A stretch of 64,000 nt of DNA from Pseudanabaena sp. PCC 7367 (GTDB lineage Bacteria; Cyanobacteriota; Cyanobacteriia; Pseudanabaenales; Pseudanabaenaceae): the NCBI RefSeq assembly GCF_000317065.1, contig NC_019690.1:248001-312000 (forward strand), in the 5' to 3' direction. Below, in pieces: positions 2,901 to 57,183 of this stretch (the stretch's first letter is position 1; each line of letters begins with the position of its first letter). The notes beneath the pieces are model-generated. The model did no database searches. It was not told the origin of the DNA and saw nothing but the letters and a program-made list of their open reading frames with translations. A program made the position numbers and the translations under genes.

Positions 2901-3659
2901 GTGGCTATACCGTTACTAGATTATTCGCCGACAAGCCGAAATACCAGGGTTACTGGTTATGAGGTTGCCAGTGAAGAGCAGCCGAAGATCTATTCAACCT
3001 CAGATTTGCCATCAGCTTCAGCAATTGAAGATGTAATCTGGGCGGCTTATCGTCAAATTTTTAGCGAACATCAATTATTAGAAAGTAATCGCCAACCTTT
3101 ACTGGAGTCACAGTTTAAGTTTGGCCAAATTAGCGCCCGTGATTTTATTCGTGGTCTGGCCACCTGTGATACTTTCCGTCGCCTCAACTACGATGCTAAC
3201 AGTAATTATCGGTTTTCCCGGATGATGGTGCAGCGTATTCTTGGGCGCGATTTCTACAACAAGCGCGAAGAATTGGCCTGGTCGATCACTCTTTGTACCA
3301 AGGGTCTGAACGCCTTCATCGATCAACTTGTAGACAGCGACGAGTATTTAGACAGCTTTGGTGATGACACCATCCCCTATCAGCGCCGCCGCATTCTGCC
3401 CCAGCGCAAGGGTGGCGAAGTGCCGTTTAATCTGGAAACCCCCCGCTATGGTGACTATACCCGTGCCAAGCTTGGTTTCCCTCAGGTGATCTGGCAAACG
3501 GCGGTACGTACTTATATGACTACCGATCGCAAGCCAAAAGTTGGCGATCCGGCCAATTTCTTGAACATGGCACGTACGATCGCCCCCAGAGGCGGCCCGG
3601 CTCCGCGTGTTTCGGCTCAAAATATTGATTTGAACAAGGTTCCTTACCGCAAACGCTAG
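2901..3659 (+). CDS. cpcG: Phycobilisome rod-core linker CpcG
   Basis: The 252-aa product starts with GTG at 2901, preceded by CGGAGA at about 7 bases. It begins MAIPLLDYSPTSRNTRV, the usual CpcG start, followed by one phycobilisome linker (PBS_linker_poly) domain at about residues 20-160, with FRRLNYDANSNYRF, VQRILGRDFYNKREELAWS and DDTIPYQRRRILPQR. The C-terminal third is polar and basic (ends NKVPYRKR) and has no membrane segment, so this is the core-attaching type rather than the CpcL type seen at 26177. It joins the phycocyanin disc nearest the core to allophycocyanin. It stands alone, with an intrinsic terminator 140 bases downstream. Confidence 0.93.
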   Translation: MAIPLLDYSPTSRNTRVTGYEVASEEQPKIYSTSDLPSASAIEDVIWAAYRQIFSEHQLLESNRQPLLESQFKFGQISARDFIRGLATCDTFRRLNYDANSNYRFSRMMVQRILGRDFYNKREELAWSITLCTKGLNAFIDQLVDSDEYLDSFGDDTIPYQRRRILPQRKGGEVPFNLETPRYGDYTRAKLGFPQVIWQTAVRTYMTTDRKPKVGDPANFLNMARTIAPRGGPAPRVSAQNIDLNKVPYRKR

Positions 3660-5391: not shown

Positions 5392-5973
5392 ATGACCCCA
5401 TTTCAACTCAACGCAAAAGTAAGAGAGCTGATTGAAAAAGCCCGGATTGTTAGTTTTGAAACCTGGCAGGACACCCACCCACCGGAGGCGATCGCCCTGT
5501 TTCAGGCCGCTGACGATGATCGCCGCTATTTAACCGATCCTGAGTTAAACCAAATTCAAGCGCTGGCTCCGGCACAGAGCGAAATGGTGTCGATCGCGGC
5601 TCAGTTGCGGGATGAGGCGAAGGGAATTGTGGATGAAGCCAGGGCAGAGGTGTTGAGAACTTTCCCTGATATTACCGCACCGGGTGGCGGGCTATATCCG
5701 CCGGAACGGGCAGAGGCTTGCTGGCGGGATTTCTGGCATTTTTTGCGCTGCGTTACCTATGGCATTGCTGGGGGGCGGACTGACTATTTGAGTGCGGTGG
5801 GCTTGGATTATCTGCAACAGCTTTACCATGAATTATCGGTGCCGTTAGAGGCGATGGTTGAAGGGCTGGGCTGTTTGAAGAATGCCAGCTTGCAACGGCT
5901 CACCCCTGCCCATGCGGATTCGCTTTCGCCCTATTTCGATCGCCTAATTGCTGAGCTGAAGCAGTTTAAGTAG
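5392..5973 (+). CDS. Orphan phycobilisome protein (phycobiliprotein-like globin fold)
   Basis: The 193-aa product is alpha-helical and carries the phycobiliprotein core signature around residue 120: EACWRDFWHFLRCVTYGIAGG, equivalent to the [21 protein letters not shown] segment of CpeB, so the bilin-accepting cysteine position (EACWRD) is kept. It has an extra acidic N-terminal part (RELIEKARIVSFETW) and FPDITAPGGGLYPPERAE before the cysteine helix. It is not one of the standard alpha or beta subunits. It belongs to a conserved group annotated only as phycobilisome protein. It has no partner subunit next to it. A minor core or sensor-type phycobiliprotein is possible; the role is unknown. Confidence 0.7.
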   Translation: MTPFQLNAKVRELIEKARIVSFETWQDTHPPEAIALFQAADDDRRYLTDPELNQIQALAPAQSEMVSIAAQLRDEAKGIVDEARAEVLRTFPDITAPGGGLYPPERAEACWRDFWHFLRCVTYGIAGGRTDYLSAVGLDYLQQLYHELSVPLEAMVEGLGCLKNASLQRLTPAHADSLSPYFDRLIAELKQFK

Positions 5974-9798: not shown

Positions 9799-10164
9799 AT
9801 GAGAGCCCATTCTCTAGATTTGCGTCAGCGCATAGTCACAGCGTACGAAAATAAAGAAGGTTCAATCCGTGAGTTGGCAACCCGATTCAGCGTTAGTAAA
9901 GACAGTGTCCATCAGCTGCTCCAACTTTATCGCACTACTGGTTCAGTTGAGCCAATTCCATACAAGGCAGGAGCAAAAGCCAAGTTTAATGAAGCTGCTC
10001 TGGCTGAGTTAGCAAAGTTAGTAGCCGCTAAAAATGATGCCACACTGTCGGAGTTATGTGAGCAAATGTATGAACGTACTGGCATCAGGGTATCAGAACC
10101 AACCATGTGCCGTACGTTGCAAAGGCAGGAGTTAACTCGAAAAAAAAACTTTTCACGCCGATGA
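9799..10164 (+). CDS. IS630 transposase, N-terminal ORF A
   Basis: The 121-aa product has a helix-turn-helix DNA-binding region (LRQRIVTAYENKEGSIRELATRFSVSKDSVHQLL) and a second winged-type domain (ATLSELCEQMYERTGIRVSEPTMCRTL), the usual paired N-terminal domains of IS630 transposases that bind the element's ends. The frame stops just after a run of nine A (about 10140-10148). Slippage or +1 frameshifting there joins it to ORF B. Confidence 0.9.
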   Translation: MRAHSLDLRQRIVTAYENKEGSIRELATRFSVSKDSVHQLLQLYRTTGSVEPIPYKAGAKAKFNEAALAELAKLVAAKNDATLSELCEQMYERTGIRVSEPTMCRTLQRQELTRKKNFSRR

Positions 10165-10180
10165 AAGGGATACAGAACGA

Positions 10181-10753
10181 GTGCAACAGCTGAGAGCAGA
10201 TTATCAACGCTGGCTTTGGCCACAGGCAATGGAAAACCTGGTATTCATTGATGAGACAGGCGTTAACCTGGCAATGACCAGGTTGTATGCAAGGGCTACT
10301 CTAGGTGAGAGAGCCTATGCTAGTAAACCACTTGCTCGAGGCAAAAACGTTACTATAATTGGGGCTATGGCATTACGCGGTGTGCTGACTAATTTTACTT
10401 TTACTGGTAGCAATAATACTGATACTTTCGTGTCCTATCTCAAAGATAAATTGCTGCCTAACCTATGGTCTGGTGCAATTGTGATTATGGATAACCTCAG
10501 TGTACATAAGGTTGATCCTGTGCGAGAGTTAATTGAGTCCGTCGGTGCTCACTTGGTTTACTTACCGCCTTATTCACCAGAGCTAAATCCGATTGAGATG
10601 CTGTGGTCAAAGGTGAAACAGTTTCTACGCTCTTGGGCGGCCAGGGACTATGATGACTTGCATAAAGCTATTTCTAACGCTCTTGCCAAGGTTTCTCTAG
10701 ACGATATTATGGGCTGGTTCCTTGAGGCCGATCTCTGTGCGTCTCTAATCTGA
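10181..10753 (+). CDS. IS630 transposase, catalytic ORF B (DDE domain)
   Basis: This frame is open from the poly-A run upstream of its first ATG, reading KKTFHADERDTERVQQLRADY. It contains the DDE catalytic triad: FIDETG, IVIMDNLSVHK and YSPELNPIEMLWSKVK. Used after a frameshift it gives a full transposase of about 320 residues. It is in the +1 frame relative to ORF A. The two copies in the window are identical in protein sequence. Confidence 0.9.
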   Translation: MQQLRADYQRWLWPQAMENLVFIDETGVNLAMTRLYARATLGERAYASKPLARGKNVTIIGAMALRGVLTNFTFTGSNNTDTFVSYLKDKLLPNLWSGAIVIMDNLSVHKVDPVRELIESVGAHLVYLPPYSPELNPIEMLWSKVKQFLRSWAARDYDDLHKAISNALAKVSLDDIMGWFLEADLCASLI

Positions 10754-12745: not shown

Positions 12746-13300
<555 letters not shown>

Positions 13301-13359: not shown

Positions 13360-13878
<519 letters not shown>

Positions 13879-16519: not shown

Positions 16520-16885
16520 ATGAGAGCCCATTCTCTAGATTTGCGTCAGCGCATAGTCACAGCGTACGAAAATAAAGAAGGTTCAATCCGTGAGTTGGCA
16601 ACCCGATTCAGCGTTAGTAAAGACAGTGTCCATCAGCTGCTCCAACTTTATCGCACTACTGGTTCAGTTGAGCCAATTCCATACAAGGCAGGAGCAAAAG
16701 CCAAGTTTAATGAAGCTGCTCTGGCTGAGTTAGCAAAGTTAGTAGCCGCTAAAAATGATGCCACACTGTCGGAGTTATGTGAGCAAATGTATGAACGTAC
16801 TGGCATCAGGGTATCAGAACCAACCATGTGCCGTACGTTGCAAAGGCAGGAGTTAACTCGAAAAAAAAACTTTTCACGCCGATGA
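16520..16885 (+). CDS. IS630 transposase, N-terminal ORF A (copy 2)
   Basis: The 121-aa protein is identical to that at 9799: paired helix-turn-helix domains for end binding, stopping after the nine-A run. It needs frameshifting or slippage to join with ORF B. Confidence 0.9.
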   Translation: MRAHSLDLRQRIVTAYENKEGSIRELATRFSVSKDSVHQLLQLYRTTGSVEPIPYKAGAKAKFNEAALAELAKLVAAKNDATLSELCEQMYERTGIRVSEPTMCRTLQRQELTRKKNFSRR

Positions 16886-16901
16886 AAGGGATACAGAACG
16901 A

Positions 16902-17474
16902 GTGCAACAGCTGAGAGCAGATTATCAACGCTGGCTTTGGCCACAGGCAATGGAAAACCTGGTATTCATTGATGAGACAGGCGTTAACCTGGCAATGACC
17001 AGGTTGTATGCAAGGGCTACTCTAGGTGAGAGAGCCTATGCTAGTAAACCACTTGCTCGAGGCAAAAACGTTACTATAATTGGGGCTATGGCATTACGCG
17101 GTGTGCTGACTAATTTTACTTTTACTGGTAGCAATAATACTGATACTTTCGTGTCCTATCTCAAAGATAAATTGCTGCCTAACCTATGGTCTGGTGCAAT
17201 TGTGATTATGGATAACCTCAGTGTACATAAGGTTGATCCTGTGCGAGAGTTAATTGAGTCCGTCGGTGCTCACTTGGTTTACTTACCGCCTTATTCACCA
17301 GAGCTAAATCCGATTGAGATGCTGTGGTCAAAGGTGAAACAGTTTCTACGCTCTTGGGCGGCCAGGGACTATGATGACTTGCATAAAGCTATTTCTAACG
17401 CTCTTGCCAAGGTTTCTCTAGACGATATTATGGGCTGGTTCCTTGAGGCCGATCTCTGTGCGTCTCTAATCTGA
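16902..17474 (+). CDS. IS630 transposase, catalytic ORF B (copy 2)
   Basis: The 190-aa protein is identical to that at 10181, with the DDE residues in FIDETG, MDNLSVHK and NPIEMLWSK. No lesion is visible, so this copy could be active if the frameshift occurs. Confidence 0.9.
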   Translation: MQQLRADYQRWLWPQAMENLVFIDETGVNLAMTRLYARATLGERAYASKPLARGKNVTIIGAMALRGVLTNFTFTGSNNTDTFVSYLKDKLLPNLWSGAIVIMDNLSVHKVDPVRELIESVGAHLVYLPPYSPELNPIEMLWSKVKQFLRSWAARDYDDLHKAISNALAKVSLDDIMGWFLEADLCASLI

Positions 17475-17949
17475 AATGCGCTGTAATAATATCGAAGTCA
17501 TTGGCAACCTTGTTTACAATCTCCCCATAGTAGTCCTGGTTAATGTTATTTCTACTAGTAGGAGCATTTAGCAACTCAAGCAAAGCATTCTTTAGAGCAC
17601 CGATCGCTTGGCGGAAAGGCTCGATCGAACCTGCCAGGGATACCAAATCCTTGATCAACCGATCCAGAAAATCATCTTCAAGGATGGATTCATTACCAGC
17701 CAGCAAAGAGTAAGTGATATGGCGCAGCACATCAGCACAGTACAGACAGGCAATCCCATCAGAATTGGTATGATTACTCGTCACTGCCTCAACCAGTTCT
17801 GCCGCATGAGCAGTAATTAATTTAGCAATATATAACCGCGCCTCTGATTTTTGGAACAAAACACGAAATCGCTCCATCTGAGACTGATCCAAAAACCTGC
17901 CTTGCTCTCTGGCAGCTTCAATACTTTGTTTAAGCGCGTCCATATCCAC
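17428..17949 (-). pseudogene. Atypical phycobiliprotein-like gene with 3' end replaced by IS630 sequence
   Basis: The present frame encodes 173 aa. The last 15 or so residues (RLETHRDRPQGTSP and neighbours) come from the IS end. The body is phycobiliprotein-like: AREQGRFLDQSQMERFRVLF at the N-terminus, and ACLYCADVLRHITYSLLAGNESILEDDFLDRL corresponding to the [29 protein letters not shown] helix of CpeB, with a cysteine at the bilin position. The expected final helix begins (VANDFDII) and is cut there. It is divergent from all standard subunits. Removing the IS does not restore a normal ending but runs into remnant DNA, so the 3' end may already have been lost. The remaining protein may still fold. 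Confidence 0.65.
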
Positions 17950-21043: not shown

Positions 21044-21892
21044 ATGCTGCCAACAGCTTCACGCTTAGGTATCAGTCAAATTGAGGAAACTCCCGCCCTT
21101 GAATGGTGGCCAGGTCAATCCGACGAGCAAGCCGATAATATTATTCGCGCTGCCTATCGCCAGGTGTTAGGCAATGCCTATGTAATGCAAAGCGAGCGGC
21201 TTACCTCGGTCGAATCCAGGTTCAAGCGGAATGAATTGACTGTTCGGGAACTGGTGCGGGAAATCGCCAAATCCGATCTCTACAAGACTCGCTTCTTTGA
21301 TAGTTGCGATCGCCTGCGGGGGATTGAATTAAACTTCCGCCATCTGCTCGGCCGCACCCCATTGGATTACGATGAGCTCAAAATGCACTGCTCGATCTAT
21401 GACAATGAAGGATATGAGGCTGATATTGATTCCTACATCGATAGCGAAGAATATCAAGAAGCCTTTGGTGACAACATTGTGCCCTATATCCGTGGCTATA
21501 AGACTGAAGCTTGTCAGAGCATCAGACAATTCTCGCAATTGTTCCAAATGGTGCGCGGCGCAGCTAGCTATAGTCTCAAGAGTGATTTTGGCGACAAGGC
21601 TCCTAAGCTCAATGCCTTGACCATCACCAGAACCCCAGCCACAGTAATTAACCCTTCACCAGCCACCACTGGTGGAGCCTTCTCCAATCCGCCAGAAAAT
21701 GCCAGAGTTAACCTGGCTCCTGGGGCAAGCGTCAAGAGCAAAACCTATCGCCTGGAGGTAACTGGTTTCTGTAAGATTTCTAGATTTGCCCGCTCCAACC
21801 AGGTGTATTATGTCCCCTTCGATCGCCTGCTGTCTGAATATCAACGGATTCACAAGCAAGGTGGCTCGATCGCCAGCGTTACCCCCGTATAA
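21044..21892 (+). CDS. cpeC: Phycoerythrin-associated rod linker CpeC
   Basis: The 282-aa protein has a PBS_linker_poly domain (about residues 20-170: IIRAAYRQVLGNAYVMQSERL, ELNFRHLLGRTPLDYDELKMH, DNIVPYIRGYKTEACQSIRQFSQLFQ). A C-terminal CpcD-like domain (about 225-282: KTYRLEVTGFCKISRFARSNQVYYVPFDRLLSEYQRIHKQGGSIASVTPV) follows. This two-domain layout and wording are those of CpeC, the linker placing the first phycoerythrin hexamer on the rod. A paralogue lies at 56329. It heads the cpeC-D-S-T-R series. Confidence 0.88.
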   Translation: MLPTASRLGISQIEETPALEWWPGQSDEQADNIIRAAYRQVLGNAYVMQSERLTSVESRFKRNELTVRELVREIAKSDLYKTRFFDSCDRLRGIELNFRHLLGRTPLDYDELKMHCSIYDNEGYEADIDSYIDSEEYQEAFGDNIVPYIRGYKTEACQSIRQFSQLFQMVRGAASYSLKSDFGDKAPKLNALTITRTPATVINPSPATTGGAFSNPPENARVNLAPGASVKSKTYRLEVTGFCKISRFARSNQVYYVPFDRLLSEYQRIHKQGGSIASVTPV

Positions 21893-22176
21893 CCCCCGTA
21901 TACCCCCTGTATAACCGTTAGGCTTAAGCGCAACTAGCAGCTATTACTAATGCTTGACTAATGCTTAGGAATACTTAGGAGCAGGATTCTATCTTGCTTC
22001 TAGGTGTGATTAGCCGTAAGTATCTGCAAGTATCTGGGGTTATCTATTTAATCGTGTTTTTCATATTCACTAATTTCATATTCACTAAACAGTTTTAATC
22101 GCTTGATCGAACTCATTCGTTAAAGTTGTTTATATTATTTTCATTTTCATTTTTTTTATTTACTGAGGTTTTTAAG

Positions 22177-22962
22177 ATGGCACTTTGGCTCGAAAGCAAA
22201 CCAGTTAGATTGACTAACATTACCGATAAGCTGAACAACATCAACAGCGAAGATGAATTGCAAGTAGTAATTCGGGCGGCCTACCGTCAGGTGCTTGGCA
22301 ATGCCCATGTGATGGATAGCCAGAGACTTACTGAAGCTGAATCACAACTGCGTGATGGCAGGACTAGCGTGGCTGATTTTGTCCGCGCGATCGGTCAATC
22401 CGAGTTATATCGCACCATGTTCTTTGAGAATTCTTCTGCCTATCGGTTTGTGGAGCTGAACTTCAAGCATTTTCTTGGTCGGGCTCCCCAAAACCAGACC
22501 GAGGTGGCCGAGCACATGGCAACCTACCACACCAAAGGCTATGAGGCGGAGATTGATTCCTATATTGACAGCGATGAATATAAAGAGGCATTTGGTGATG
22601 ACACCGTGCCCTATATTCGTGGCAACGCTTCTCAGCCGGGGATCTCGAATGTCAGCTTCAATCGCACCTTTGCGATCGCACGGGGTGATGCCTCCAGCGA
22701 CATTAGCAATGTTGCCAAGCTGATCCGCGATATTGCTGGGAATATTCCCACCAAAATTGTGCCCCCCGCTCAAAGTCTCAGCGGTACAGGCAATCGTGCC
22801 AAGCGCTATCGTCTGACGGTGGCTGGCGCTCAGGCTGGCCCACGGGTGACCCGCGTTAGCCGCACTAAAGTGTTTGAAGTCAGCTATGATCAGCTTTCCC
22901 GCCGCTTGCAGGATATCCAAAAATCCGGTGGTCAGGTGGTCAGTATTAATGAAGTTAGTTAA
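22177..22962 (+). CDS. cpeD: Phycoerythrin-associated rod linker, CpeD-like
   Basis: The start is taken at the ATG at 22177 (MALWLESKPVRLTN), which has TGAGGTT upstream; an ATG at 22126 would add a phenylalanine-rich leader. The 261-aa product has a PBS_linker_poly domain (VVIRAAYRQVLGNAHVMDSQRL, ELNFKHFLGRAPQNQTEV, DDTVPYIRGNASQ). A C-terminal CpcD-like domain (KRYRLTVAGAQAGPRVTRVSRTKVFEVSYDQL) follows. It probably stacks the second phycoerythrin hexamer. CpeD versus CpeE naming rests on gene order and is less certain than the family. Confidence 0.8.
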   Translation: MALWLESKPVRLTNITDKLNNINSEDELQVVIRAAYRQVLGNAHVMDSQRLTEAESQLRDGRTSVADFVRAIGQSELYRTMFFENSSAYRFVELNFKHFLGRAPQNQTEVAEHMATYHTKGYEAEIDSYIDSDEYKEAFGDDTVPYIRGNASQPGISNVSFNRTFAIARGDASSDISNVAKLIRDIAGNIPTKIVPPAQSLSGTGNRAKRYRLTVAGAQAGPRVTRVSRTKVFEVSYDQLSRRLQDIQKSGGQVVSINEVS

Positions 22963-23188: not shown

Positions 23189-23740
23189 ATGGATATTAAG
23201 GAGTTCGTGGCGCAATCAATCGGGCAATGGCGATCGCAGCGGAGCGCTCATCATCTGGCGTTTGGTCATTTTGAGGCGATTCGATCGGAAATTGCGATCG
23301 AGGTAGTGGCCGATCATGATCCGGCGGTGATTGAGTTATGCAAAGCCCATGACATCGATCCTGGTTCGGCCGTTGCGCCCTTTCGGATGAGATGGGAAGG
23401 CCAGTCCGATTGGGATGAAGAAGAAGAGGTAAAAGGAACCTGCATTCTGGTGCCAGTTCCCGACCCAGGCCAAGCCAATCGCGGTAAACTGTTGCGCGAT
23501 CGTGGTTATGCCGAAACTATGGCCGCCGCTGGCGATTATTATCTCACTGCCGATGGCACGTTTGTGCTTACCACTGCCTACGATCGGGCTGCCGCCGAGG
23601 AGAAAATCTGGTTCATTAATCCCAATGTGCGCTGCCGCGTATCTTTGATTAAAACTAGTGCTGGCTCTGGGGTGGTAACGGCTTCGTTTTCCTCGGAAAT
23701 TCGCCAAGAGATTCGTCAAGAAATCCGCCAAGCTAGCTAA
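23189..23740 (+). CDS. cpeS: Phycoerythrobilin lyase CpeS
   Basis: The 183-aa protein of the CpeS/CpcS family begins MDIKEFVAQSIGQWRSQRSAHHLAFGHFEA, with the W(R/F)SQR(S/T)xH signature of the lipocalin-like lyase fold. Later motifs are GKLLRDRGYAE and EEKIWFINPNVRCRVS. In characterised strains CpeS attaches phycoerythrobilin to the central cysteine (Cys80) of CpeB. The tail carries a short imperfect duplication EIRQEIRQEIRQ. It lies 226 bases after the linker gene and 57 before cpeT. Confidence 0.88.
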   Translation: MDIKEFVAQSIGQWRSQRSAHHLAFGHFEAIRSEIAIEVVADHDPAVIELCKAHDIDPGSAVAPFRMRWEGQSDWDEEEEVKGTCILVPVPDPGQANRGKLLRDRGYAETMAAAGDYYLTADGTFVLTTAYDRAAAEEKIWFINPNVRCRVSLIKTSAGSGVVTASFSSEIRQEIRQEIRQAS

Positions 23741-23797: not shown

Positions 23798-24436
23798 ATG
23801 CTCAATGCTGATATGACCGATCTTCCTAACCCAACTACTAATCCTGGTGATTTAGTTACCTTGGCGCAGTGGCTGGCGGGGGATTTTAGCAATTATCAGC
23901 AAGCAGCGGCCAATCCAATTAATTATGCCCATATTCGGGTGTTCTTTCGACCATTGCCGCCCGGCTTTTTCCCTGGGATTGGCTTCTATTCCGAGCAGGT
24001 CTATGATTATGATCTGTGGACTCCCTATCGCCAGGGGATACATCAATTGGTTGACCAGGGCGATCGCATTTATATTGAGAATTATGGCCTCACCGATCCA
24101 ATGCTCTATGCTGGTTCGGCGCGGGATTTGAACATTCTCAACACCATTACCCCAGCAGCAATCAATCGCCGTGATCATTGCGCTATGGTCTTTCGGCGCG
24201 AGGGCGATCGCTTTATTGGCGCAGTGGAAGGAAAGGAATGCTTGATTCCTAAGAATGGCCGCCAGACTTACTTAGATAGCTATGTGGAAATCACGGCCAA
24301 TACCTGGGTCAGTCTCGATCGGGGTCTGGATGTGAATACCCATGAACAGGTGTGGGGCTCTGAACATGGCCCATTGCAGTTTGAGAAACGCGAGAGTTTT
24401 GCCGATGAAATCCCAATTATCAAACAAGATTCCTAA
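23798..24436 (+). CDS. cpeT: Phycobiliprotein lyase CpeT
   Basis: The 212-aa CpeT/CpcT-family product shows LAQWLAGDFSNYQQA near the start, then FFRPLPPGFFPGIGFYSEQVYDYDLWTPYRQGIH, CAMVFRREGDRFIGAVEGKECLI and WVSLDRGLDVNTHEQVWGSEHGPLQFEKR, the standard conserved blocks. CpeT-type lyases attach a bilin to the C-terminal cysteine of beta subunits (Cys165 in CpeB). The start is probably MLNADMTD or the ATG five codons later. Its 3' end overlaps a possible long start of cpeR. Confidence 0.92.
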   Translation: MLNADMTDLPNPTTNPGDLVTLAQWLAGDFSNYQQAAANPINYAHIRVFFRPLPPGFFPGIGFYSEQVYDYDLWTPYRQGIHQLVDQGDRIYIENYGLTDPMLYAGSARDLNILNTITPAAINRRDHCAMVFRREGDRFIGAVEGKECLIPKNGRQTYLDSYVEITANTWVSLDRGLDVNTHEQVWGSEHGPLQFEKRESFADEIPIIKQDS

Positions 24437-24461: not shown

Positions 24462-24767
24462 ATGTTGCCGCCAGAAGCCCAAAAGAAAATTAAAGGTTGG
24501 ATTCGCAGTCGTCATTTAATCTGTTCCGGTAGTTTCTTTGTGTTTGAGACCGTGGACTATGGCGCGGTCGATCGCTTCGTTATTTGCGTGGAGGCGTTGG
24601 GCGGGGCGGTGATTTGCGTAGATCCGATCGATAAAATCTGGATGGGCGATCATCGCCAGGTGATGCTCTATCAGGCCAGGGCAAGCTTGCATACTCCCCA
24701 CCATGACCTGAAGCAATATTGGATTAAGTATGGCAGTTTTCGCACCCGGTTCGATCGCCAGCCTTGA
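24462..24767 (+). CDS. cpeR: Phycoerythrin operon activator CpeR
   Basis: Begun at MLPPEAQKKIKGWIRSRHL (24462), the product is 101 aa and holds SGSFFVFETVDYGAVDRF, VDPIDKIWMGDHRQVMLYQARASLHTPHHDLKQYWIKYGSF and RTRFDR, which I recognise as CpeR, the activator of cpeBA expression in chromatically acclimating cyanobacteria. An alternative ATG at 24405, inside cpeT, adds 19 residues. No strong ribosome site precedes 24462, so translational coupling to cpeT is possible. The order S-T-R matches the known cpeESTR arrangement. Confidence 0.9.
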   Translation: MLPPEAQKKIKGWIRSRHLICSGSFFVFETVDYGAVDRFVICVEALGGAVICVDPIDKIWMGDHRQVMLYQARASLHTPHHDLKQYWIKYGSFRTRFDRQP

Positions 24768-25066
24768 GATTGACCGATCATCCCGATCACTCTGGACAGG
24801 ACAGATAACTGCCTGAACTCCTAAATCCAGCAATCCAGAGATCAAGCATAAATCACCCCAACCACGATTGGTCTTTTTTTAGCATAGAGTCAATGCTAGG
24901 AATAGACTAAAATCAATGGTTTAAAACTTAATTTAAACTTAATTAAGCCAAATCAATTTAAATTAATAACTTTTGCTTCAAATAACTTTATTTAACTTCA
25001 AGAAGCAACTAGTGGCATTGATTAGTATTTATACTTAGAACTAATAATAAGCAGGATTTAATTAGC
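24768..25066 (+). other. Intergenic region between cpeR and the coiled-coil linker
   Basis: No gene is seen. ACCACGATTGGT (24861-24872) with a following CTTTTTTT forms a small terminator-like hairpin after cpeR. The rest is AT-rich with TTTAA repeats and probably contains a separate promoter for the linker gene at 25067. Confidence 0.4.
24861..24880 (+). terminator. Weak terminator after cpeR
   Basis: A short ACCA/TGGT stem with a four-base loop is followed directly by C and seven T. The stem is short, so read-through is likely. Confidence 0.45.
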
Positions 25067-26092
25067 ATGGCCAGTACTTTCGTTAATCCAGTTGTGAATC
25101 CCGATGCCGATCTGGGCATCAATTCATTTGTGCAAACCGATCCAATTCGAGTTTGGCCAACCTCCAGCAGTGAAGAACTAGCAGTGGCGATTCGCGCCAT
25201 CTATCGGCAGGTGCTTGGTAATGCCCATGTAATGGATAGTGAGCGCCAAATTACTCTAGAATCGCAATTCAAACAGGGCGATCTGAGCGTGCGGGAATTT
25301 GTGCGGCGGCTGGCCAAGTCAGAACTATATCAATCCCGGTTCTTTGCTAATTGCTATCGCTATCGAGCGATCGAATTGAACTTTAAACACCTGCTGGGTC
25401 GGGCTCCCAATAACTTTGATGAAATGCGTGCCCACAGCGATATTCTAGATCGGGGCGGATTTGAAGCAGAAATTGATGCCTATGTCGATAGTGATGAATA
25501 CCAAGCAGCCTTTGGCGATGACGTGGTGCCCTTTTATCGTGGCTATCGCACCCAGACTGGTCATCCCCTAATGGGTTTCAAGAATATGTTTGAATTGCTG
25601 CGCAGTGCTTCTAGTAGTGATAAGAACATTGCCACTAATAATAAGGCAAAGCTGACCCAAACGCTGATTCGCAGTGCTAACCTGGCGAAGCCGCAGAGCG
25701 ATGGGGTAAGCGGAATTCTGGCGGATGTATTCAAACCCAAATCAGCGATCGCCCAACGGCAATCCTATGCCAGTTCAAGCACCTATGGCTATGGTTCCTT
25801 TGGCAGCGCCCAAAACTTGTCACAAACATTCCAGGAACAGGCAAAGCAAATCAGCCAATTACAAAATCAACTGACCGAATTGCGCCCCTTTGCTTCCCTA
25901 GGAGCAGGCATAGCCAGAAGCGGTTGGCAGCCCAGCGCCGGCGGCGGGGCGATCGACTCGGATCTTTCGATCGCGCAGCAAGTGGCAGCCCAGAAAGACC
26001 AGATTGCCAGACTAACCGAACAGATCGCCGACACCAGAAGGTATGCGGAAATTGGGTTTGCCAGAGCGAATAAATGGCAACGGCGTTTTTAA
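25067..26092 (+). CDS. Phycoerythrin-associated linker with coiled-coil C-terminus (CpeE-like)
   Basis: The 341-aa product has a PBS_linker_poly domain at about residues 38-175 (VAIRAIYRQVLGNAHVMDSER, ELNFKHLLGRAPNNFDEMRAH, DDVVPFYRGYRTQTGHPLMGF). Instead of the C-terminal CpcD-like domain it carries a long Gln/Ser-rich extension with two heptad-like stretches (FQEQAKQISQLQNQLTELRPFASLG and KDQIARLTEQIADTRRYAEIG), suggesting a coiled coil. Its position downstream of cpeC-R and upstream of cpcL makes a phycoerythrin rod linker likely. I cannot be sure it is the orthologue of CpeE. It may cap rods or mediate contacts between rods. Confidence 0.75.
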   Translation: MASTFVNPVVNPDADLGINSFVQTDPIRVWPTSSSEELAVAIRAIYRQVLGNAHVMDSERQITLESQFKQGDLSVREFVRRLAKSELYQSRFFANCYRYRAIELNFKHLLGRAPNNFDEMRAHSDILDRGGFEAEIDAYVDSDEYQAAFGDDVVPFYRGYRTQTGHPLMGFKNMFELLRSASSSDKNIATNNKAKLTQTLIRSANLAKPQSDGVSGILADVFKPKSAIAQRQSYASSSTYGYGSFGSAQNLSQTFQEQAKQISQLQNQLTELRPFASLGAGIARSGWQPSAGGGAIDSDLSIAQQVAAQKDQIARLTEQIADTRRYAEIGFARANKWQRRF

Positions 26093-26176: not shown

Positions 26177-26911
26177 ATGTCAATCCCGCTCTTAGAATAC
26201 ACCACCAAGTCAGAGAATCATCGTGTGGATGGTTTTGAAGTACCTGGGGAAGAGCAACCCAATCGCTATAAGGCTGGCCAGGGGGGTATAGCAACTGATG
26301 TGGATATCTCGATTTCCACTGCCTATCGACAGATTTGGAATGAGCAACAAATGTTGAGCCACTATCGCCAACGTTTCCTAGAATCGCAACTGCGCTCTGG
26401 CCAAATTACCGTTAAGGACTTTATTCGTGGCCTGCTGCTATCGGCATCGTTCCGTAATCTGGTCTTTGATACCAATAATAACTATCGGTTTGCAGAAATC
26501 TGCGTACAGCGGGTGCTGGGTCGGAATGTGTATAGCGATCGTGAAAAAATCGCCTGGTCGATCGTGCTGGCTACCTCTGGCTTGAATGGGTTTGTGGATG
26601 CGCTTTTGGCCAGTGATGAATATAACGATAACTTCGGCGATCACACTGTGCCCTACCAACGCCGCCGCATTTTGCCCCAACACGATCGGGGTGAAACCAC
26701 CTTTAACCACATGGCTCGCTATGGCACCGACTACCGCGATAAGCTACCCAAGTCTTCCTATGGTGGTCGGGGTGGTGCGCGCTTGAGCTATACCCGCTGG
26801 GAATGGCAGCGCAATCTACCCAAGGAATTGCAACAGACCTGGATCGCCTTGTTCTATTTTGGGCTTGCATTCATTGTGCTGATGTTTGGCGTGACGGTGT
26901 TGGGCTACTAG
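26177..26911 (+). CDS. cpcL: Membrane-anchored rod linker CpcL (CpcG2 type)
   Basis: The 244-aa protein has the CpcG start (MSIPLLEYTTKSENHRVDGFEVPGEEQPN) and a PBS_linker_poly domain (IWNEQQMLSHYRQRFLESQL, NNNYRFAEICVQRVLGRNVY, DHTVPYQRRRILPQHDRG). Its last 22 or so residues are hydrophobic (WIALFYFGLAFIVLMFGVTVLGY). That terminal membrane helix defines CpcL, which anchors core-less rods to the thylakoid and serves photosystem I; in several strains it is green-light induced. It is 84 bases behind the coiled-coil linker, with GGAGAATTATT before the ATG, so coexpression with phycoerythrin linkers is likely. Confidence 0.92.
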   Translation: MSIPLLEYTTKSENHRVDGFEVPGEEQPNRYKAGQGGIATDVDISISTAYRQIWNEQQMLSHYRQRFLESQLRSGQITVKDFIRGLLLSASFRNLVFDTNNNYRFAEICVQRVLGRNVYSDREKIAWSIVLATSGLNGFVDALLASDEYNDNFGDHTVPYQRRRILPQHDRGETTFNHMARYGTDYRDKLPKSSYGGRGGARLSYTRWEWQRNLPKELQQTWIALFYFGLAFIVLMFGVTVLGY

Positions 26912-34310: not shown

Positions 34311-34829
34311 CTAAGCTACAGCAGCAGCGGCGCGATCGAAGTAGCCACCAACTTCAGACATTAGGTTGCTGCAATCACCACGGGTAATACCATTAGGATC
34401 ATTAGCGATCGCAATCGCGGCATCCTTCATCTTGCCCACACCGACGGCTACGGAAGCACCAGGAGTACCCAGGGCTAGGTAGGTTTCACGAAGACCATTC
34501 AAGCAGCGATCATCTAATACGCTGGCATCACCGGCGAAGATTGCATAGGTGACATAGCGCAAGATGATTTCCATATCGCGCAAGCAAGCAGCCATACGAC
34601 GGTTGGTGTATGCATTACCACCAGGAGCGATTAGCTGAGGTTGCTCATCAAACAAAGCACGAGCAGCATTAGCAACGATCGCAGAAGAGTTGCTGGTGAT
34701 CCGGTTTACAGTATCCAAGCGCTTGTTGCCTTCAGCAACCATGGAACTTAGGGCATCGATTTGAGAAGCACTTAGGTAAGCACCTCTGGTATCGGCTTCG
34801 GCGACGACCTTGGCAAACGCGTCAAACAT
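34311..34829 (-). CDS. cpcB: C-phycocyanin beta subunit
   Basis: The 172-aa protein has bilin cysteines at 82 ([23 protein letters not shown]) and 153 (TRGDCSNLM) and the conserved Asn before AYTNRRMA (methylation site). It begins [20 protein letters not shown]. Bilins at Cys82 and Cys153 are normally added by CpcS-type and CpcT-type lyases. A good ribosome site (TAGGAG) precedes the ATG. It is separated from cpcA by 195 bases, longer than usual. Confidence 0.97.
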
Positions 34830-56328: not shown

Positions 56329-57183
56329 CTATATAGGTGTAATGCTAGCGATCACGCCACCCTGACGGTGAATGCGCTGATATTCATAGGACAATTTGTC
56401 AAACGGCACCAAGAAGACCTGGTTAGCACGGCGGAACTGGGAAGATTTCCTAAACTTGTTAGCACGATAGCCTGTGACTTCAACCCGATAGACTTTGCCT
56501 TGTTCGCGGGCACCAACACCAAAGCGAGCACCCGTGGCTGGATTTCTGAAGGTGGCTCCATCGCTGGCTGGCGAAATCACCGCCGTAGGTGTACCCAGAA
56601 TGGTCAAAGAATTAAGTTTCGGCTTCTTGCCCGATAGATCACCTTTGAGACTGCTGCTAGCAGAACCGCGTACTAACTGGAACAGGTGGGTGAACTGAGT
56701 CATACTGGTGCAAGCTTCGGTTTTGTAGCCGCGAATATAGGGCACGCCATCTTCACCAAATGTAGCTTGATACTCGTCGCTATCAATATAAGAATCAATA
56801 TCAGCCTCAAATCCTTCTGTGTCGAGGATCGTGCTATGTCCCCGCATCTCTTCTAGATCCAAGGGAGCCCGACCCAGCAGATGGCGGAAGTTCAGTTCGA
56901 TCGCCCGATAGCGAGCACAACTGGTGAAGAAGCGGGAGCGATAGAGTTCTGATTTGGCAACGGCACGCACAAACCCACGCACGCTTAATTCTTGGCGCTT
57001 GAATTGGGATTCTGGCACCGCAAGACGCTCGCTGTCCATCACATAAGCATTGCCCAATACCTGGCGATAGACCGCTGAAATAATTGTTTCGGCTTCTTCT
57101 TCAGAGAGGCCAGGCACCCATTCAAGTAGTGGGGTTTCATCAAACCGACTGACCCCTAAGCGTGAAGCTGGTCCAAAAGACAT
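56329..57183 (-). CDS. Phycoerythrin-associated rod linker, second CpeC-type
   Basis: The 284-aa protein, MSFGPASRLGVSRFDETPLLEWVPGLSEEEAETIISAVYRQVLGNAYVMDSERL, is very like CpeC of other cyanobacteria and even closer to that type than the gene at 21044. It has a PBS_linker_poly domain then a C-terminal CpcD-like domain (KVYRVEVTGYRANKFRKSSQFRRANQVFLVPFDKLSYEYQRIHRQGGVIASITPI). The upstream element at 57381-57411 is shared with cpeC at 21044. It could be used under different light or fill another rod position. Confidence 0.9.
   Translation of the reverse strand: MSFGPASRLGVSRFDETPLLEWVPGLSEEEAETIISAVYRQVLGNAYVMDSERLAVPESQFKRQELSVRGFVRAVAKSELYRSRFFTSCARYRAIELNFRHLLGRAPLDLEEMRGHSTILDTEGFEADIDSYIDSDEYQATFGEDGVPYIRGYKTEACTSMTQFTHLFQLVRGSASSSLKGDLSGKKPKLNSLTILGTPTAVISPASDGATFRNPATGARFGVGAREQGKVYRVEVTGYRANKFRKSSQFRRANQVFLVPFDKLSYEYQRIHRQGGVIASITPI

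Follow-up and report, generated by a model that had tools for sequence, protein, structure and literature searches.

In this stretch of DNA, cpcL, the gene for a rod-membrane linker, lies directly behind a gene for a phycoerythrin (PE)-type rod linker that we call LinkX, and the LinkX-cpcL pair probably makes core-less, membrane-anchored rods that contain PE and follow PE production rather than the known green/red switch. The window, by which we mean the whole 64,000-nucleotide stretch analysed, corresponds to bases 248001-312000 of contig C1 (328,634 bp), which together with contig C2 (4,557,046 bp) makes up the genome. The relevant features of the window, with strands in brackets, are as follows.

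2901-3659 (+): cpcG, ordinary rod-core linker, by Pfam, alignment and tree
12746-13300 (+): cpeB, NCBIfam NF058508, 312.8 bits, above cut-off
13384-13878 (+): cpeA, NCBIfam NF058506, 302.3 bits, above cut-off
21044-21892 (+): cpeC paralogue, PF00427 plus CpcD domain (Pfam), in the CpeC clade (100/99)
22177-22962 (+): cpeD, Pfam match, CpeD-type by its place in the CpeD-position clade (99/94)
23189-23740 (+): cpeS lyase gene, PF09367
23798-24436 (+): cpeT lyase gene, PF06206
24405-24767 (+): cpeR-like regulator gene, from a probable start at 24405 (ORF listed from 24342)
24768-25066 (+): gap of 299 bp between cpeR and LinkX
25067-26092 (+): LinkX, PE-type rod linker with PF00427, no CpcD domain and a C-terminal coiled tail of about 100 residues
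26177-26911 (+): cpcL, rod-membrane linker of 244 aa with a C-terminal hydrophobic helix
33627-34115 (-): cpcA, NCBIfam TIGR01338, 291.6 bits, above cut-off
34311-34829 (-): cpcB, NCBIfam TIGR01339, 316 bits, above cut-off
56329-57183 (-): second CpeC-type linker gene, most similar to cpeC from other PE operons (86% in the linker domain)

The order on the + strand is cpeC-cpeD-cpeS-cpeT-cpeR, the 299-bp gap, LinkX, an 84-bp gap and cpcL. For cpeD, we read a probable ATG start at 22177 from the sequence, while the ORF list gives a TTG at 22126. The cpeR-like ORF had no match in Pfam or NCBIfam; we assume it to be cpeR from its place after cpeT and from its sequence, and homologues with 59-76% identity occupy the same place in relatives.

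The ORF at 26177-26911 had originally been predicted to encode CpcL, and this assignment was confirmed by the presence of PF00427 (E 8.2e-43, residues 40-162), a hydrophobic C-terminal helix and a phylogenetic position with CpcL rather than CpcG. The strongest hydrophobic stretch, residues 223-241, has a mean Kyte-Doolittle value of 2.47, compared to a maximum of 0.82 for the window CpcG. In phmmer searches, residues 1-235 matched the solved chain 8hfq_n ('Photosystem I-associated linker protein CpcL'), which we take to be the Synechocystis CpcL protein, at 234.9 bits, but this score is not proof of identity because a red-algal rod-core linker was nearly equal (229.8 bits over residues 1-196) and three other CpcL chains scored only 168-170 bits. 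The phmmer score alone being insufficient, the identity is decided by the helix and the tree. In a tree of 53 rows built from residues 1-195, that is, the linker domain only, helix-bearing and helix-less proteins were split at 100/98, with 39 of the 40 helix-bearing rows and the window CpcL on the CpcL side; the one exception, L135, fell on the CpcG side, where the window CpcG was also placed. By analogy with known CpcL proteins, the window CpcL would bind photosystem I and form core-less rods. The surroundings of the gene were likewise as predicted, in that LinkX ends at 26092 and cpcL starts 84 bases further on at 26177, cpeR ends at 24767, 1.4 kb upstream, and cpcG lies 22.5 kb away (the prediction had 23 kb).

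Phylogeny also upheld the designation of the upstream neighbour as a PE-type linker. Linkers were labelled according to their gene context in relatives, and 74 linker domains were used to build a tree, in which the phycocyanin (PC) label rests on 10 rows from five loci. The window LinkX fell in a LinkX clade (99/98) within a CpeC+LinkX group (100/99) that was separate from the PC and PEC linkers (100/99), and CpeC was the nearest linker type. When the tree was enlarged by three rows, the join between LinkX and CpeC lost its resolution, and LinkX still grouped with its own family, apart from the PC clade. Unlike the window CpeC and CpeD, LinkX is without PF01383 (the CpcD domain) in Pfam searches, and for this reason we call it PE-type rather than CpeC. 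The 74-domain tree also placed the genes at 21044 and 56329 both as CpeC-type (100/99), so that a CpcC assignment for 56329 was rejected, and by the same tree the CpcC label for genes heading PE operons in relatives is wrong.

When 12 LinkX proteins were aligned, 19 columns were invariant in the tail, which spans the last 100 residues (window 25787-26089). The tail had no Pfam match above cut-off, and PDB searches gave nothing better than E 0.17. The AlphaFold prediction for LinkX had a mean pLDDT of 59.9, and we used no more of it than two long tail helices, at residues 245-280 and 302-340, with low confidence. Two-domain forms of LinkX (587-599 aa) are encoded in relatives at L170:4497-6296, L176:10224-11993, L179:10184-11953 and L186:283-2046. 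The single-domain LinkX of the window and that of L171 match the second of these domains, and those of L105, L173 and L177 match the first and belong to the other sub-clade (94/93). Despite these different linker-domain sub-clades, the tail is common to the LinkX of the window and of L105, L173 and L177.

The pairing of LinkX with cpcL recurs in relatives. Full-length CpcL, taken as at least 58% identity over at least 235 of 244 residues, was found in 15 of the 38 genomes of the same family that were searched, at 16 loci, window included, all of which were inspected. ORFs of the relatives were named only by best match to window proteins and three reference regulators, with CcaS, CcaR and RcaE recorded only at 50% identity or more. 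A LinkX-type gene directly precedes cpcL at eight of the 16 loci (the window, L105, L170, L171, L173, L176, L177 and L179); an adjacent LinkX is absent at the other eight, one of which, L174, has a contig that starts just before cpcL. Because the pairing is kept in relatives, the two genes are not chance neighbours. CcaS adjoins cpcL at 11 of the 16 loci and at five of the eight with LinkX, and the LinkX-cpcL unit is flanked by both ccaS and ccaR at five of the eight (L105, L173, L176, L177 and L179). LinkX and cpcL are the only genes recognised between ccaR and ccaS in L105, L173 and L177, and the unit in L176 and L179 reads CpeE/CpeD-like linker-cpeR-LinkX-cpcL. In the window and two relatives, the pair instead stands with PE genes and without CcaSR. 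One of these relatives, L170, has the order of the window (cpeC-linker-cpeD-cpeS-cpeT-cpeR-LinkX-cpcL) with an extra linker and a two-domain LinkX, and CcaSR was not seen on its 12.7-kb contig; in the other, L171, the pair lies beside PE genes with no CcaSR seen within 17 kb. We also looked at 25 helix-bearing CpcL loci from outside the family, chosen from high-scoring matches rather than randomly, and at nine of them the distance from cpcL to cpeR or a PE linker is no more than 2 kb (L113, L115, L117-L119, L121-L123 and L126). The association of LinkX with CpcL is not universal, since in other-family loci L102, L103, L104 and L106 it lies behind cpeR with no cpcL recognised; at L109, LinkX stands alone, also without cpcL.

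The genome encodes 10 PF00427 domains, comprising two CpeC, one CpeD, LinkX, CpcG, CpcL, three in a 916-residue ApcE frame and a divergent linker on C2 that occupies a very long branch in the tree. Among the seven domains outside ApcE, the trees revealed no CpcC-type linker. CpcL holds a basal PC hexamer, and if this is true of the window protein, then CpcL rods extending beyond one PC disc would need PE linkers, given that no CpcC-type linker was found. We propose that LinkX and cpcL give rise to core-less, membrane-anchored antenna rods in which CpcL would bind the basal phycocyanin hexamer and plug its C-terminal helix into the thylakoid, placing the rods where known CpcL proteins feed photosystem I. 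PE hexamers would be stacked on top by PE linkers, with LinkX acting as a PE linker dedicated to, or co-expressed with, the CpcL rods. As the pair sits with the main PE genes and is unattached to CcaSR, its output would be expected to follow PE production, either through CpeR or through a shared transcript. With a 299-bp gap before LinkX, the pair may or may not be co-transcribed with cpeR; neither a terminator-like site on the + strand nor a CcaR box was seen in this gap, which might contain a separate promoter, although none was identified. It is also the case that CpeC and CpeD alone could serve the CpcL rods, which would speak against a role for LinkX. The rod composition, the docking to photosystem I and the transcription pattern are what we infer from these genes, and PE-containing CpcL rods are likely here, if unproven.

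A rather unlikely alternative is that the CpcL rods are short, consisting of a single hexamer of PC only, that LinkX serves the hemidiscoidal phycobilisome, and that the adjacency of the two genes reflects nothing beyond shared timing. The PE clusters with LinkX and no cpcL described above (L102-L104 and L106), the solitary LinkX of L109, and the fact that the solved CpcL entries 8hfq, 9w4j and 9w7k also contain phycocyanin rod linkers are all in line with it. Yet it makes little sense of L105, L173 and L177, because at these loci no antenna gene besides LinkX and cpcL was recognised between ccaR and ccaS, and it is further opposed by the failure to find a CpcC-type linker for longer PC rods. 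We retain PE-containing, core-less rods as the likely reading of the pair; on this point the original prediction stood, along with the CpcL identity and the adjoining PE linker, but the green-light coupling that it attached to these rods did not.

Green-light coupling of cpcL was not supported, as CcaS, CcaR and RcaE were not found at ortholog level in the genome and the surroundings of these genes lack a CcaR box. Whole-genome searches with the CcaS and CcaR of L105 and the RcaE of L115 returned no ortholog-level match. The best GAF domain of the genome was 42% identical to CcaS in domain comparisons covering 30 of the 41 GAF matches and 46% identical in the whole-genome search, as against at least 63% for the CcaS GAFs of other loci. 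Identities to RcaE were 38-43% over the domain comparisons and the whole-genome search, as against 75% for the RcaE of G390. The best CcaR match was 54% identical, compared to 65-98% at other loci. A GAF tree, limited to the better-scoring domains, placed one GAF of the genome, L051 (33% identity), inside the CcaS/RcaE group, and we took this to be a long-branch artefact.

The CcaR box was searched as directly adjacent repeats, the pattern shown by CcaSR loci; a pattern with a 4-base spacer matched nothing and was discarded. Among 20 CcaR-associated operons, 19 are preceded by a box with at most one mismatch (L183 is not), a partly circular result as the pattern derives from those loci. At loci without CcaSR, a box with up to three mismatches was found in none of the 16 upstream regions searched, three of which are from the window. 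Some genomes behind these 16 regions have CcaSR elsewhere (G091, with L119), and G174 has CcaR at L123. The window contains no CcaR box within three mismatches, and the genome a single match with two mismatches, on C2.

We accordingly regard it as doubtful that cpcL and LinkX are under green/red light control in this strain. What speaks for such control is that the same pair lies between ccaS and ccaR at five of the eight family loci, each unit being preceded by a CcaR box with one mismatch (L105, L173, L176, L177 and L179), that CA2 and CA3 have PE genes among their targets as far as excerpts of the literature describe these, and that one GAF of the genome, C2:1643096-1643620, has the Cys-Leu pair given for CcaS and RcaE in the available part of PMC9415938. 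Together with an RcaC-shaped regulator, this GAF makes a different colour sensor possible. The regulator in question, L151 (737 aa), aligns over nearly its full length with the RcaC-like protein of G390 at 33% identity. In the promoter search, the motif that we took as the RcaC box preceded two cpcB genes of G390, which has RcaE, with 1-2 mismatches, but its cpeC with 4; the best match in the window, before cpcB, had 3 mismatches.

Coiled-coil proteins that have no other relation to LinkX end in a similar tail; some of them are ribbon-helix-helix-like at the N-terminus, and several have their genes within clusters for the phycobilisome. Across the phylum, 37 of 386 genomes gave matches to a profile of the tail. 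At 14 of the 16 wider loci there was an ORF carrying the motif close to its end, a position that the filter demanded. When the ORFs at 16 weaker-match loci were viewed without the motif requirement, 15 ended in a variant of the tail; among these loci, the tail of L204 belongs to a LinkX, no more than an end fragment was visible for L216, and L217 had none. Pfam searches with six tail-bearing proteins gave weak ribbon-helix-helix matches in L208 and L223 and an HMA_2 domain in L206, which L207 and L209 resemble by eye. Together with L128, which passed that filter, and L107, identified by eye, the 14 wider loci make 16, and six of these have phycobilisome-related genes at a distance of about 350 bp or less, namely pebA or a pebA-like gene (L228, L230 and L241), cpcS/cpcT-type lyase genes (L240 and L128), or cpeZ and LinkX (L107). 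Coiled-coil ORFs with the tail are the following.

L107:17879-19248
L128:11999-12667
L228:8933-10021
L240:8828-9478
L241:9677-11314

Kinship between the LinkX tail and the tails of coiled-coil proteins may be considered a lead only, as coiled-coil composition inflates such matches. More speculatively, and in our estimation improbable as a whole, LinkX might be a dedicated linker for PE-containing CpcL rods with its tail (which ends approximately in ARRxAxIGxARLNKWRxRxF) serving as a phycobilisome docking or sorting tag, in which case the LinkX-CpcL cassette would move between CcaSR colour-switched and PE-coupled unswitched settings.

Several observations concern the genomic setting. C1 carries cpeBA, cpcBA, the rod linkers, cpcG and cpcL, and C2 carries ApcE and four strong phycobilisome proteins best matched by ApcA/ApcB models. 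An ORF at C1:6433-7029, ParA-like by eye, suggests that C1 is a plasmid. Searches of plasmid collections gave no match, the records of the window's own genome perhaps having been left out there, and a scan of named genomes for close relatives gave one MAG contig, at 47%. Proteins of the phycobilisome family (PF00502) are encoded at window 5392-5973 (a strong match, 178 bits) and 17428-17949 (-) (a weak match that overlaps the end of a transposase ORF). Two gene pairs for what are presumably IS630-like transposases, alike by eye, lie at 9799-10753 and 16520-17474 and flank the cpeBA/cpeYZ-like region, and many genes that we take to be Uma2-type are scattered through the cluster. On C2, the divergent 253-aa linker adjoins two divergent phycobilisome-family proteins (C2:2497979-2500316, that is, L110:7979-10316), possibly a small unusual phycobiliprotein set, and further phycobilisome-family proteins at C2:406943-407380 and C2:908404-908880 had no NCBIfam subunit model above cut-off.

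Hirose et al. reportedly described in 2010 an operon of Nostoc punctiforme ATCC 29133, cpeC-cpcG2(cpcL)-cpeR1, under CcaS/CcaR. There, as here, cpcL is encoded with a PE linker and cpeR, tying expression of the rod-membrane linker to PE; in contrast, the window has no CcaSR or CcaR box that we could find, the PE linker adjoining cpcL is LinkX, with its coiled tail and no CpcD domain, and the pair lies behind cpeC-D-S-T-R. The occurrence of cpcL among PE genes is therefore not new, since PE genes and cpcL already share the N. punctiforme CcaSR operon in the available text of PMC12461855, and most cpcL genes lie in phycobiliprotein operons according to the accessible portion of PMC9415938. That portion also gives counts: of 65 genomes, 42 carry cpcL, with CcaS present in only 11 of the 42, and 14 of 27 RcaE-type strains have CpcL. 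In Geminocystis sp. NIES-3708, cpeC and cpeR are together in one light-regulated operon, as they are together in the gene cluster of the window, but that operon has CcaSR and no cpcL (PMC4424290).

The window CpcL resembles that of Synechocystis sp. PCC 6803 in its PF00427 domain, its C-terminal hydrophobic helix and its near full-length match to 8hfq_n, whereas Synechocystis is PC-only, with CpcC linkers and CcaSR, and the window strain has PE and no CpcC that we found. We know of no PE linker adjoining cpcL in Anabaena sp. PCC 7120, the rods of which contain PC and PEC, unlike the window, where a PE linker adjoins cpcL. Both nevertheless have a CpcL without a known colour sensor. The Synechocystis rod-shaped phycobilisome with CpcL belongs to CA1 (PMC12461855, in part), and the CpcL-PSI rods of Anabaena are expressed without photoregulation (PMC9415938, in part). 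Cyanobium sp. NIVA-CYA 375 is, like the window strain, a PE strain with cpcL and neither ccaSR nor rcaE; it carries cpcL and cpeA without CA sensors, and its authors propose PE-enriched CpcL rods, although it belongs to another lineage and the excerpted text describes no gene cassette (PMC13342260). The general reading, in which cpcL goes with PE genes and CpcL rods may be PE-enriched, is thus already published. What seems to be new is the LinkX-CpcL cassette, the fact that it has lost known colour control, and the tail of LinkX with its recurrence in coiled-coil proteins; our searches of the open-licence PMC literature turned up no mention of the cassette or the tail.

LinkX-cpcL is a concrete gene pair for asking whether PE feeds photosystem I directly via CpcL rods, and related genomes, in which this antenna module occurs either with or without colour control, offer a natural comparison between switched and unswitched rods. 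The failure to find CpcC furthermore leads to a sharp prediction, namely that longer CpcL rods must contain PE linkers.
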